A stretch of DNA of 33,412 nucleotides from an uncultured Clostridia bacterium. GTDB taxonomy: Bacteria; Bacillota; Clostridia; Christensenellales; Borkfalkiaceae. How positions within the stretch are numbered: the stretch's first letter is position 1; each line of letters starts with the position of its first letter. Shown here one piece after another: positions 4,357 through 10,014 of this stretch. The DNA is taken from assembly GCA_947627515.1 (NCBI GenBank), contig CANQWI010000007.1:1-33412 (forward strand), written 5' to 3'. The notes beneath the pieces were generated by a model. The model saw only the letters and a list, made by a program, of their open reading frames with translations, was not told where the DNA came from and did not search any database. A program made the translations under genes and the position numbers.

Positions 4357-6852
4357 TTATCTGCTGCGAAAGACGAGGCGGTCCTTTTCGACGTCCACAA
4401 GGACCTCTCCCGTGCGGATACGGCCCATGAGGAGCTGCTCGGAGAGGGCGTCCTCGACCAGCTTCTGCACGGTGCGCTTGAGCGGGCGGGCGCCGTATTC
4501 GTCGCTATAGCCACGCTCCACGAGGAGCTCCCTTGCCGCCTCCGTAAAGGTGAGACGGATCCTCTGCTCGGCGATCCGCTTGTTGACGCCTGCGAGCAGC
4601 CCGTCGAGAATGCGGGCGGCGTCCTCGCGGGTGAGCTTGTGAAAGATGATGACGTCATCGAGCCTGTTCAGAAGCTCGGGACGGAACTGCTTTTTGAGAG
4701 CGGCCTCGATGCTCTCTCTCATCTCATCATATTCGGAGCGGGCGTCCTCTGTCCCAAAGCCGAGCGAGGACTCCTTCACCGCATGCGCCCCGATGTTGGA
4801 GGTGAGAATGACGACGGTATTTTTAAAGCTGACCGTGCGGCCGCGGCTGTCCGTGAGCCGTCCGTCGTCGAGGAGCTGCAAAAGCAGGTTGAAGATGTCG
4901 GGGTGGGCCTTTTCGACCTCGTCAAAGAGCACGACGGAGTAGGGCTTCTTCCGCACCCTTCCCGTGAGATACCCCTCGCCGTCGTCGTAGCCCACATAGC
5001 CCGGGGCCGCGCCGATGAGCTTGGAGACAGAGCTTTTATCCATATATTCGGACATGTCGAGACGGATCATGAGGCTCTCATCGCCGAAGAGGCTCTCCGC
5101 GAGTGCCTTACAAAGGTCCGTCTTGCCGACGCCCGTGGGACCGACGAAGATGAAGGAGCCGATGGGACGGTTCGGGTCCTTGAGTCCCGCCCTTGCGCGG
5201 CGGATCGCCCTTGCGACGGCGGTGACTGCCTCGTCCTGCCCGACGATGCGGCGATGCAGCTCCTCCTCCAAATGCAGAAGGCGGTCGGATTCCTGCTCCG
5301 TGAGGCGGGAGACGGGCACCCCCGACCAGCTTGAGACGATGGCTGCGATGTCCTCTGCACCGATGCTCACATGCGCACGGCTCTTCTTCATCTGCCATTC
5401 ACGGCGCATGGAAAGCACCCTTCCCTCGAGCGTCTCCGCCTCGGAGGCGAGGGAGGCAGCGTTCTCATCCCCCCATTTTACGGCCTTGTCCCTGTCCGAT
5501 CTCAGACGGACGAGCCTGTCTTCGGCGTCATGCAGCTCCGCGGGGCCGCTCTCCGCATTCAAACGGGCACGGGAGGCCGCCTCGTCGATGAGGTCAATGG
5601 CCTTATCGGGGAGAAATCTGTCTGTGATGTAGCGGTCTGAAAGCTTTGCCGCCGCCTCGATGGCCTCCTCGGTGATCACGACGTTGTGATGTGCCTCGTA
5701 CTTGTCCCTGATGCCGCGGAGGATGATGATTGTGTCCTCGACGGAGGGCTGGTCGACGGTGACGGGGGTAAAGCGGCGTTCGAGCGCGGGGTCCTTTTCG
5801 ATATAGTGATACTCCTCGAGGGTGGTCGCGCCGATGGTCTGCAGCTCCCCGCGTGCGAGCATGGGCTTTAAAATATTCGCCGCGTCCATCGACCCGCCGT
5901 CCGAGGAGCTCCCCGCGCCGACGATGGTGTGGATCTCGTCGATGAACAGAATGATGTCCTTGTCCGCTCTGACGGCGTCGATGATGTGCTTCAGCCGCTC
6001 CTCGAAATCGCCACGGTAGCGCGTACCTGCAAGCAGGCTGGTGAGGTTGAGCGAAAAGACGATCTTTCCGCGGAGAAGGTCGGGCACCTCCCCCTGCGCG
6101 ATGGAGAGGGCAAGCCCCTCGACGACGGCACTCTTGCCGACGCCCGGCTCCCCGATGAGCACGGGGTTGTTCTTGGTCCTTCTCGAGAGGATCTGAATGA
6201 CCTTCTCGATCTCCTTGCGCCGACCGATCACGGGGTCGAGCCTCCCGCTCCGCGCCTTCTGCGTGAGGTCCTCCCCATAGGGAAGCAGGCTCTCATCCAC
6301 GGTGTGGACGGGGACGTCGCGCACGGCACGCGGCTGTTCTCCCGCGGAATAGGCGGGCCCGCCGCGCGTGATGGTGTCATTGATAAACGCCTCCGTCCGC
6401 TCGATGAGGAGGGGCAGGTCGATGTGCAGGCCGTTGAGAAGGTAGTACGCAATGCTTTCCTCCTCATTGAGAATGGCAAGAAGCACGTGCTCGGTGCCCG
6501 TGATAGGCAGATAGGACCCACCCGAGTGCGTGTAGCTGCTCGCCATTTTAAAGACATTCTTGGTGCGGGGGGTGTAGCCGAACCGCTTGGTCATGTCGTG
6601 GGAGACGGATCTTCGGAAGCTCTCACGGTAGGCGGCATAGTCGAGCCCCGACGCCGCGAGCAGTCTGCCCGCCGTGCAGGCGGGGACCTCCATCATGGCG
6701 AGGATGAGATGCTCACTGCCGACAAAGTTGGTCTTGTAGAATTTTGCGATCTGGTCTGCCTGCCGCAGGACCTGCCTGAGATGGTCCGAGTAAAATTTAT
6801 TATTTCTGTATTGGTCGTCCGAATCGTATTCTTCCGAATGATTTTCGTCCAT
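4357..6852 (-). CDS. clpC: ATP-dependent Clp protease ATPase subunit ClpC
   Basis: 831-residue Hsp100 unfoldase that feeds proteins, including arginine-phosphorylated ones, to ClpP. Order of domains: Clp_N double repeat (about 20-160), first AAA module with Walker A GEPGVGKS (234-241) and Walker B ILFIDEIH (301-308), a coiled-coil middle region (about 430-500), and second AAA module with Walker A GPTGVGKT (571-578) and FDEVEKAHP (about 643-651). An LGFG tripeptide loop near 697 fits the ClpP-docking loop. The length matches Bacillus ClpC (about 810). The ribosome binding site AGGAG lies six bases before the ATG, and the gene follows mcsB by 14 bases. Its partners mcsA and mcsB are directly upstream, and clpP lies at 27392-27982. 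No CtsR or CIRCE box is seen upstream of this gene or of the operon promoter. Confidence 0.97.
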   Translation of the reverse strand: MDENHSEEYDSDDQYRNNKFYSDHLRQVLRQADQIAKFYKTNFVGSEHLILAMMEVPACTAGRLLAASGLDYAAYRESFRRSVSHDMTKRFGYTPRTKNVFKMASSYTHSGGSYLPITGTEHVLLAILNEEESIAYYLLNGLHIDLPLLIERTEAFINDTITRGGPAYSAGEQPRAVRDVPVHTVDESLLPYGEDLTQKARSGRLDPVIGRRKEIEKVIQILSRRTKNNPVLIGEPGVGKSAVVEGLALSIAQGEVPDLLRGKIVFSLNLTSLLAGTRYRGDFEERLKHIIDAVRADKDIILFIDEIHTIVGAGSSSDGGSMDAANILKPMLARGELQTIGATTLEEYHYIEKDPALERRFTPVTVDQPSVEDTIIILRGIRDKYEAHHNVVITEEAIEAAAKLSDRYITDRFLPDKAIDLIDEAASRARLNAESGPAELHDAEDRLVRLRSDRDKAVKWGDENAASLASEAETLEGRVLSMRREWQMKKSRAHVSIGAEDIAAIVSSWSGVPVSRLTEQESDRLLHLEEELHRRIVGQDEAVTAVARAIRRARAGLKDPNRPIGSFIFVGPTGVGKTDLCKALAESLFGDESLMIRLDMSEYMDKSSVSKLIGAAPGYVGYDDGEGYLTGRVRKKPYSVVLFDEVEKAHPDIFNLLLQLLDDGRLTDSRGRTVSFKNTVVILTSNIGAHAVKESSLGFGTEDARSEYDEMRESIEAALKKQFRPELLNRLDDVIIFHKLTREDAARILDGLLAGVNKRIAEQRIRLTFTEAARELLVERGYSDEYGARPLKRTVQKLVEDALSEQLLMGRIRTGEVLVDVEKDRLVFRSR

Positions 6853-6866
6853 AGCTGCTCCTTATT

Positions 6867-9394: not shown

Positions 9395-10014
9395 TCGTGC
9401 GTCCTCGCTTTTTTACGCCATACAAAATAGATGAGGGCCAAAATCTGCAGAGGCACCCCCACGAGAAAGATGAGCCACATGCCCTTGCTCACACCGCACA
9501 CCCAAAGAGTAAGATAGACGCAGGCAAGCAGCGTCCAGACGAGGAGGGAGACGGAGACGACCCGCGTCCATTTCCAATGCCAGACGCAGGAAAAGACGGT
9601 GACGACGATCGCGCTCGCGGGCACCGCATAGACAAAGGCGAGCCACGCGCCCCTTCGCCATTCCCCCTGCACGTTCCACGCGACGCCGATGAGCACGAAG
9701 CAGGCGACGGCGACGAGCCACACAAGGCCGACGGAGAGGATGGTGATGATGATGCGGCGAAGCCTGCGCTCCCGCTTGGGCACGACGGGCTTCTCCCTGT
9801 GCTCGCGCACAAGGTCGTCGACGGAGACGTTGAAGAGCTCCGCAAGCTGGACGAGGATCCTGACGTCGGGGATCCCGTTGCCCTGCTCCCATTTGGAAAC
9901 GGATTTATCCGAGTAATTGAGCTTTTCGGCAAGCTCCAGCTGCGTCATGCCCGAGAGCTTGCGCAGACGCGTGATATTCTGACCGATGGTGATCGCGAGA
10001 TCCTGTTCTTCCAT
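9391..10014 (-). CDS. XRE-family regulator with C-terminal membrane domain
   Basis: 207 residues. An HTH_3/XRE DNA-binding domain occupies about 8-65 (QNITRLRKLSGMTQLELAEKL, then SDKSVSKWEQGNGIPDV). A basic linker (KRERRLRR, about 78-85) is followed by about four hydrophobic helices (88-200), so the regulator is membrane-tethered and could sense envelope state. It is the first gene of an operon with the PH-like membrane protein, mcsA, mcsB and clpC, in the place normally held by ctsR. The promoter is perfect consensus TTGACA-N17-TATAAT with the ATG six bases after TATAAT, predicting a leaderless mRNA. Palindromes upstream of the -35 are candidate autoregulatory operators. The target and signal are unknown. 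Confidence 0.9.
   Translation of the reverse strand: MEEQDLAITIGQNITRLRKLSGMTQLELAEKLNYSDKSVSKWEQGNGIPDVRILVQLAELFNVSVDDLVREHREKPVVPKRERRLRRIIITILSVGLVWLVAVACFVLIGVAWNVQGEWRRGAWLAFVYAVPASAIVVTVFSCVWHWKWTRVVSVSLLVWTLLACVYLTLWVCGVSKGMWLIFLVGVPLQILALIYFVWRKKARTHE

Follow-up and report, generated by a model that had tools for sequence, protein, structure and literature searches.

What controls the genes for arginine-phosphorylation-dependent proteolysis when the mcsA-mcsB-clpC operon lacks ctsR, the gene that leads it in Bacillus? The question is raised by a stretch of 33,412 nucleotides (the window), positions 1 to 33,412 of contig CANQWI010000007.1 in the assembly GCA_947627515.1 of an uncultured Clostridia bacterium of the family Borkfalkiaceae, in which five closely spaced reading frames on the minus strand run from position 10014 to position 4357. 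An initial annotation of this DNA had recognised the last three as mcsA, mcsB and clpC, and had suggested that the two membrane-associated proteins encoded in front of them, here called XREtm and PHmem, provide an envelope-sensing control in place of CtsR. Our analysis confirmed its observation and supported its interpretation in part. We consider it rather probable that the operon is now headed by XREtm, a membrane-tethered regulator responsive to lipids or to the state of the membrane, which would also control a degV-family gene.

An operon without ctsR and its first gene

The assembly that contains the window, as its contig C7, measures 1.53 Mb and is 71% complete. No match to CtsR (PF05848) was found in this assembly, where the first gene of the operon encodes an HTH_3 protein instead, nor in any of the 73 genomes of its genus (g1), versus matches in 26 of the 48 genomes of other families in the order. 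In the family as a whole, CtsR was detected in two of 161 genomes, both of the genus g53, and in none of the 107 genomes that were at least 90% complete; McsB was present in 69 of the 73 g1 genomes and in 131 of the 161 genomes of the family. These counts ruled out a ctsR gene elsewhere in the genome and bore out the initial annotation in its description of an operon without ctsR. HrcA was nearly absent from g1 as well, being found in four of 61 genomes (one of them with a fragment) and not in the genome of the window, with positive results for controls such as Bacillus subtilis.

The sites of both regulators were also sought in front of the operon. The best match to the CtsR box A/GGTCAAA-NAN-A/GGTCAAA (pattern from PMC12634643) in 10000-10300 had 6 mismatches and its reversed control 5. 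The same test in ten ctsR-bearing relatives gave 0-3 mismatches versus 3-5 for the control, so it does detect such boxes; two of 66 g1 upstream regions reached 2 mismatches, the control minimum being 3. For the HrcA site, the controlling inverted repeat of chaperone expression (CIRCE, its sequence from general knowledge), the best match before the operon had 8 mismatches, as had the control. Both were rejected as control sites of the operon because their matches were no better than those of the reversed controls, in agreement with the initial annotation, which had seen neither.

The reading frames and the operon were where they had been placed, and their families, that of PHmem excepted, were recognised by Pfam or, weakly for mcsA, by NCBIfam. 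XREtm (9391-10014, minus strand, 207 amino acids) matched HTH_3 (PF01381) with an E-value of 3.4e-14, over the cut-off, and its stop is overlapped by 4 nucleotides (nt) by the start of PHmem (8333-9394, minus strand, 353 amino acids). After a gap of 18 nt comes mcsA (7892-8314, minus strand, 140 amino acids), for the arginine kinase activator, whose product has four CxxC pairs by eye and whose identity rests on its place and on a weak match to NCBIfam NF053706 (E 1.7e-15), far below the model cut-off. It adjoins and overlaps mcsB (6867-7895, minus strand, 342 amino acids), for the protein arginine kinase, which matched ATP-gua_Ptrans (PF00217, E 5e-58) and NCBIfam NF002194 (E 3e-102, under the cut-off of that model). 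The last gene, clpC (4357-6852, minus strand, 831 amino acids), encodes an Hsp100 ATPase with two AAA modules and Clp_N repeats, matched by PF07724 (AAA_2), PF17871, PF00004 and PF02861 (Clp_N).

The order XREtm, PHmem, mcsA and mcsB was found in 65 of the 68 g1 loci fetched (numbered with L; G denotes genomes), extending across genomes the co-occurrence with mcsAB-clpC, while the other three loci end at contig ends before XREtm. In two sister genera of the same family, g46 and g48, XREtm adjoins mcsB by match coordinates in 19 of 20 and 5 of 5 genomes, respectively. All 20 loci fetched from those 24 genomes had XREtm immediately 5' of mcsA; for 14 of the 15 g46 loci the gap between the two genes was 2-51 nt. 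PHmem gave no strong match in g46 and g48 and was therefore rejected as an essential part of the operon link. The proposal that two membrane genes occupy the ctsR position was upheld for XREtm, across the three genera, and corrected for PHmem, which is not core.

In the other genera of the family, none of the 19 loci fetched had XREtm in front of mcsA, and one of them (L299) has ctsR. XREtm itself is more widespread, with profile matches at E<=1e-20 in 143 of the 161 genomes of the family and in 104 of 297 genomes of the order. When 72 XREtm proteins were placed in a tree (alignment without L180 and L203), the 38 mcsA-linked proteins formed one clade with support 99/93, and a single change sufficed in 98% of 200 bootstrap trees. 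As read from these sequences, XREtm came to occupy the place of ctsR in a single event, in an ancestor shared by three genera of one family. Relatives without the linkage had been named beforehand as evidence against the initial annotation; XREtm genes unlinked to mcsAB do exist in other genera, but they fall outside the linked clade.

Candidate operator, promoter and second predicted target

The initial annotation had proposed 10055-10088 as a stretch to which the XRE protein might bind. Within one base of it we found a conserved composite repeat of 35 bp (10054-10088, minus strand), GTAGAG-N13-CTCTAC-N5-GTAGA, a candidate operator made of inverted half-sites, the right part of which is the palindrome TCTACT-CTC-AGTAGA. 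It was the sole match in the window at three mismatches or fewer (shuffle mean 0.02). Upstream of XREtm in 66 g1 loci, the composite had 0 mismatches in 56 and one mismatch in 2, and the reversed pattern never had fewer than 5. The exact composite occurred in 58 of the 73 g1 genomes, always as a single copy, 56 of these being on the operon contig by their coordinates; in G005 and G008 it was on a different contig and was checked to precede XREtm. One copy with one mismatch, on contig 46 of G049, had no XREtm beside it. A further possible half-site, CTCTAT (10106-10111, minus strand), lies upstream of the composite and was read by eye, uncounted, in many relatives.

A perfect σ70/A-type promoter, TTGACA-17-TATAAT (10021-10049, minus strand), with 12 of 12 matches, separates the composite from XREtm. 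The end of its -10 hexamer is 6 nt from the XREtm ATG in the window, and across the 66 loci this distance was either 6 nt (54 loci) or 7 nt (12 loci), so the XREtm transcript is predicted to be leaderless, and the operon mRNA probably lacks a leader at the XREtm start. The lambda cI and acuR operon mRNAs are described as leaderless in PMC3017554, according to which the acuR regulator gene is well transcribed and translated less than the genes downstream. In g46 (loci L274-L287 and L293), the XREtm promoter has a strikingly uniform CTTGACGA, and the -10 hexamer keeps its 6-nt distance from the ATG also in those loci that have lost the TAGAG site.

The composite ended 3-4 nt from the -35 hexamer in 52, 14-15 nt in 7 and 24-25 nt in 4 of 63 g1 loci (L042, L043 and L065 excluded), and the distance from the palindrome to the ATG in g1 moved in steps of about one helical turn (37-40, 49-50 and 59-60 nt). 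Outside g1, the phasing of this distance at 11 bp was R=0.77 for 28 loci and R=0.68 for 18 distinct values, which none of 5000 jittered sets reached; these loci are related and hence not independent, and the test excluded repeats of the same locus as well as 6 loci without a -10 hexamer near the ATG. The placement of the site upstream of the -35 region and its shifts by one turn would suit an activator that contacts the RNA polymerase, and the near-perfect promoter would suit a repressor as well; XREtm may act as either.

A second predicted target was found in degV. All 61 g1 genomes had a degV-family match (Pfam DegV) at E<=1e-40, and 56 of them a close orthologue (E below 1e-90), with only more distant matches in G012, G021, G027, G037 and G050. 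Among the matches listed, which include 36 g1 genomes, the close degV orthologue was present in 32, and in 29 of the 32 the palindrome was located 119-199 bp upstream of it. The genome of the window is one of these, with the palindrome at 17314-17329 of contig C17 and the degV match beginning at 17452. When the degV upstream regions were examined for the pattern (28 of 30 used, as the start could not be placed in L357 and L358), the palindrome had 0 mismatches in 27 of 28 and the reversed control at least 3, and many of these regions carried further half-sites after the palindrome, about 20 bp apart.

Of the loci fetched outside g1, g46 and g48, 10 of 21 in the family and 8 of 13 in other families had a DegV-like frame, by profile score or by eye, as the closest divergent neighbour of XREtm. 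Nine DegV-like divergent neighbours, one of them from g46, were submitted to Pfam and all nine were DegV; a tenth neighbour was a GDSL esterase. The palindrome before degV and the frequent divergence of XREtm from degV elsewhere suggest that XREtm is probably a membrane-tethered autoregulator recruited from a lipid-related divergon. In three g46 loci, L274, L275 and L277, degV is divergent on one side of XREtm and mcsA-mcsB lies behind it, with the composite at 0, 5 and 1 mismatches, respectively (degV was identified by Pfam for L274 only). We take these loci as the missing link between the degV divergon and the mcsA linkage, and their arrangement looks ancestral; in g1, degV would later have been separated from XREtm. 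The shared sites and the old neighbourhood of degV and GDSL esterase point to lipid metabolism rather than to general envelope sensing, DegV proteins being described as fatty acid binding in PMC10138225. On a plain reading, the lipid state of the membrane would be the input to XREtm.

Palindromes away from XREtm and degV were also considered as members of a regulon and were rejected: of 20 loci read, 13 proved to be degV and the other 7 were hairpin-like by eye. Among the matches listed, the leftover palindromes amounted to at least 35 across 36 genomes, with G020 alone accounting for 11, versus 75 matches of the control pattern in 45 g1 genomes. In L154, L157 and L171 TAGAG palindromes lie within hairpins; the one in L154 is beside a gene for a haemolysin-III family membrane protein (Pfam), and L157 looked similar by eye.

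The TAGAG sites could also belong to a different regulator, of which XREtm would be merely one target. The palindromes in hairpins elsewhere in the genomes speak for this; moreover, the site has been lost before XREtm in most of the g46 and g48 loci, where the composite had at least 5 mismatches in 16 of 20 and 2 in one (it was retained with 0-1 mismatches in L274, L277 and L290, and L291 ends 73 nt upstream). We nevertheless hold this explanation to be quite improbable, because the composite also accompanies XREtm in other genera and families where the gene is unlinked, with 0-2 mismatches in ten loci (L313, L314, L316, L317, L318, L321, L366, L368, L376 and L379), and because XREtm has a conserved recognition-helix region (YSDKSVSKWEQG).

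The two predicted membrane proteins and the proposed control

In the model of XREtm, a Cro/CI-type helix-turn-helix (HTH) occupies about residues 8-70, four helices predicted to be transmembrane come after it (80-114, 125-144, 148-172 and 180-206), and the protein is predicted to have little outside the membrane beyond its DNA-binding part. The HTH part gave PDB profile matches to the ICEBs1 Xre regulator, PezA and SinR. A hydrophobic tail was seen by eye in 19 of 19 aligned rows, and R86 and R87, in an arginine cluster between the HTH and the first helix, were invariant in the alignment. A phage origin was discarded, given that the PHROGs matches of XREtm were confined to residues 2-101 and PHmem had none.

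PHmem was modelled with two helical hairpins, taken as transmembrane (10-54/60-103 and 227-254/256-278); a PH-like domain comes after each of them (at about 104-204 and 281-351, respectively), and the test for a PH fold was positive. The mean predicted local distance difference test score (pLDDT) of 87.8 and the weak fold matches agreed with the dual PH-like reading given to 8333-9394 by the initial annotation. No Pfam or NCBIfam model matched PHmem above its curated cut-off, and an NCBIfam match to STM3941 (E 2.4e-4, under the cut-off) led nowhere. Strong matches (E below 1e-90) were obtained in 21 of 21 sampled g1 genomes, and 14 other genomes of the family gave weak partial stretches only. 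The named records with PHmem are uncultured Clostridia or Bacillota, many from 'Lapin' samples, and one Candidatus Gallimonas merdigallinarum. The PHmem alignment was made without L180, which has a stop codon.

The interval between PHmem and mcsA varies in g1. In 39 of the 65 operons it holds a frame with the DUF1653 pattern, confirmed by Pfam in one case, and there is none in the window. A second PHmem-like frame of weak similarity (22-25 bits), perhaps a tandem duplication, occupies it in L059, L071 and L096, and in L048 and L107 the gap is filled by CATCCTGA-type stretches that, by eye, are similar to the direct repeats at 1828-2124 of the window.

With its PH-like domains behind transmembrane hairpins, PHmem might be a membrane antagonist that, like an anti-sigma or immunity module, holds XREtm at the membrane upon envelope stress, XREtm being a plain repressor. 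Cro/CI proteins are mostly repressors, the promoter is near-perfect, and the frame of XREtm overlaps that of PHmem in 9 of 66 loci, the window included, all of which would fit such a pair. Against it, PHmem has no strong match outside g1, whereas XREtm and partly its site persist there, and the site lies upstream of the -35 region, off the promoter, and moves by helical turns. We regard this explanation as rather unlikely, though worth keeping in mind.

The conserved candidate operator before XREtm agrees with the initial annotation; the tie of the control to mcsAB-clpC was corrected. A second consensus TTGACA/TATAAT-like promoter was found before mcsA in 9 of the 65 g1 operons (the union of two scans, L046 being picked up by one only), and in three of these nine a terminator-like hairpin came after PHmem, with no composite site there. 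The coupling of XREtm to mcsAB-clpC is therefore not universal, and in the operons with a second promoter mcsAB-clpC is probably uncoupled from XREtm. Such operons suggest that XREtm and PHmem could be a bystander cassette that controls only itself (and degV), with mcsAB-clpC merely downstream at a constant level or under its own promoter; the existence of XREtm without mcsAB in other genera agrees with this, as does the finding that neither ctsR nor XREtm precedes mcsA in 18 of the 19 loci fetched from other genera. A bystander role seems unlikely to us, since a second consensus promoter was not found in 56 of the 65 operons, the linkage has been retained across g1 and its two sister genera since its single origin, and the gaps are tight both between PHmem and mcsA in the window and between XREtm and mcsA in g46.

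The second promoters and their hairpins, the loci led by neither regulator and the loss of the composite in most loci of the sister genera, where XREtm nonetheless stays linked, all weigh against a lipid-responsive XREtm as head of the operon, as do several other observations. XREtm and mcsB are on separate contigs in G167, one of the 20 g46 genomes; HrcA is retained in G027, G048 and G050; 8 of the 66 g1 loci lack a close composite, partly through one-base spacing changes; the model of XREtm has a mean pLDDT of 71, with low-confidence values of 50-71 in the tail; and PHmem is limited to g1. Separately, we noted that the three HrcA-keeping genomes have a divergent PHmem, and that G048 and G050 also have a second promoter before mcsA.

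The control that we propose, by a lipid-responsive XREtm, would have arisen through the loss of ctsR, the class III repressor gene, with the XREtm gene taking the first place of the mcsA-mcsB-clpC operon. XREtm would bind the composite site just 5' of its own promoter, where transcription would yield a leaderless mRNA for XREtm, PHmem, McsA, McsB and ClpC, and it would also bind the related sites before the degV-family gene elsewhere in the genome. The four-helix part of XREtm, in g1 perhaps with the co-translated PHmem, may sense the state or the lipid make-up of the membrane, and this sensing would set the transcription of the operon and of degV. Arginine-phosphorylation-dependent proteolysis would then be tied to the lipid status of the membrane, not to heat via CtsR and HrcA. 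A more elaborate version, which we offer tentatively and think unlikely to be correct in full, is that a lipid-sensing XREtm replaces CtsR and co-controls degV while McsB and ClpC act back on it as in Bacillus, possibly through the arginine cluster.

What is known of McsAB-ClpC control concerns the soluble heat sensor CtsR, whose place seems to have gone to a regulator with a predicted membrane tail in a genus of gut Clostridia and two sister genera. If the proposal is true, bacterial protein arginine phosphorylation can be coupled to membrane lipids. It also gives a lead to the function of a widespread XRE class with four predicted transmembrane helices, and the defined candidate DNA site allows testing in vitro.

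Other features of the window lie apart from this circuit. No tRNA or Rfam element was found in it. A second perfect TTGACA-17-TATAAT promoter (4289-4317, minus strand) lies just after clpC, about 135 bp before a predicted lipoprotein gene (2177-4153). On the other side of that lipoprotein-like gene, 1828-2124 holds two intergenic direct-repeat pairs (68 nt, 99% and 55 nt, 85%; 192 and 178 bp apart), and at the contig end (33177-33412) there is a 59-nt direct repeat (98%) with a start-to-start distance of 177. Upstream of the operon, 10258-13295 carries cysK, acpP and genes for a deoxyinosine glycosylase and an M16 peptidase, with matches in L047-L050, L057 and L069 only, of the 68 loci.

Comparison with known systems

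Circuits in which the first gene encodes an autoregulated DNA-binding protein that controls mcsAB-clpC are already known, namely from CtsR in the ctsR-mcsA-mcsB-clpC operon of Bacillus, where CtsR has a site before its own gene and a regulon that exceeds the operon (PMC5506225, PMC12634643). XREtm resembles CtsR in that its gene heads an mcsA-mcsB-clpC operon and has a conserved site upstream. As far as open-access titles and abstracts show, neither a membrane-tailed Cro/CI protein in this role nor the TAGAG site nor a tie to degV has been described; no paper linking XRE, DegV and McsB was found in that literature, which leaves most subscription papers outside its coverage. CtsR is described as a soluble winged-HTH thermosensor that represses through direct repeats of A/GGTCAAA at the core promoter, whereas XREtm has a Cro/CI HTH, a predicted membrane tail and inverted TAGAG half-sites upstream of the -35 region. 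Unlike CtsR, XREtm has degV as its second predicted target; clpP and clpE lie outside this comparison.

The actinobacterial ClgR resembles XREtm by description as an HTH regulator over clp protease genes and its own gene, and it is itself a Clp substrate (PMC5352834). It differs in that it activates clpP1P2, and the account in PMC5352834 describes no membrane part. A parallel on the lipid side is FabT of Streptococcus pyogenes, a lipid-responsive, self-repressed regulator of the degV-family gene fakB4, which belongs to the MarR family and is presented in PMC10138225 apart from any mcsAB-clpC link. XREtm is predicted to control a degV-family gene as well, from the head of mcsAB-clpC.

The combination of a DNA-binding domain and a membrane helix in one chain is known from ToxR, CadC and RodZ, which have other HTH types, one transmembrane helix and an outer domain. 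XREtm is like them in joining an HTH to predicted membrane helices in a single chain, and unlike them in that four such helices are predicted, with little of the chain outside the membrane.

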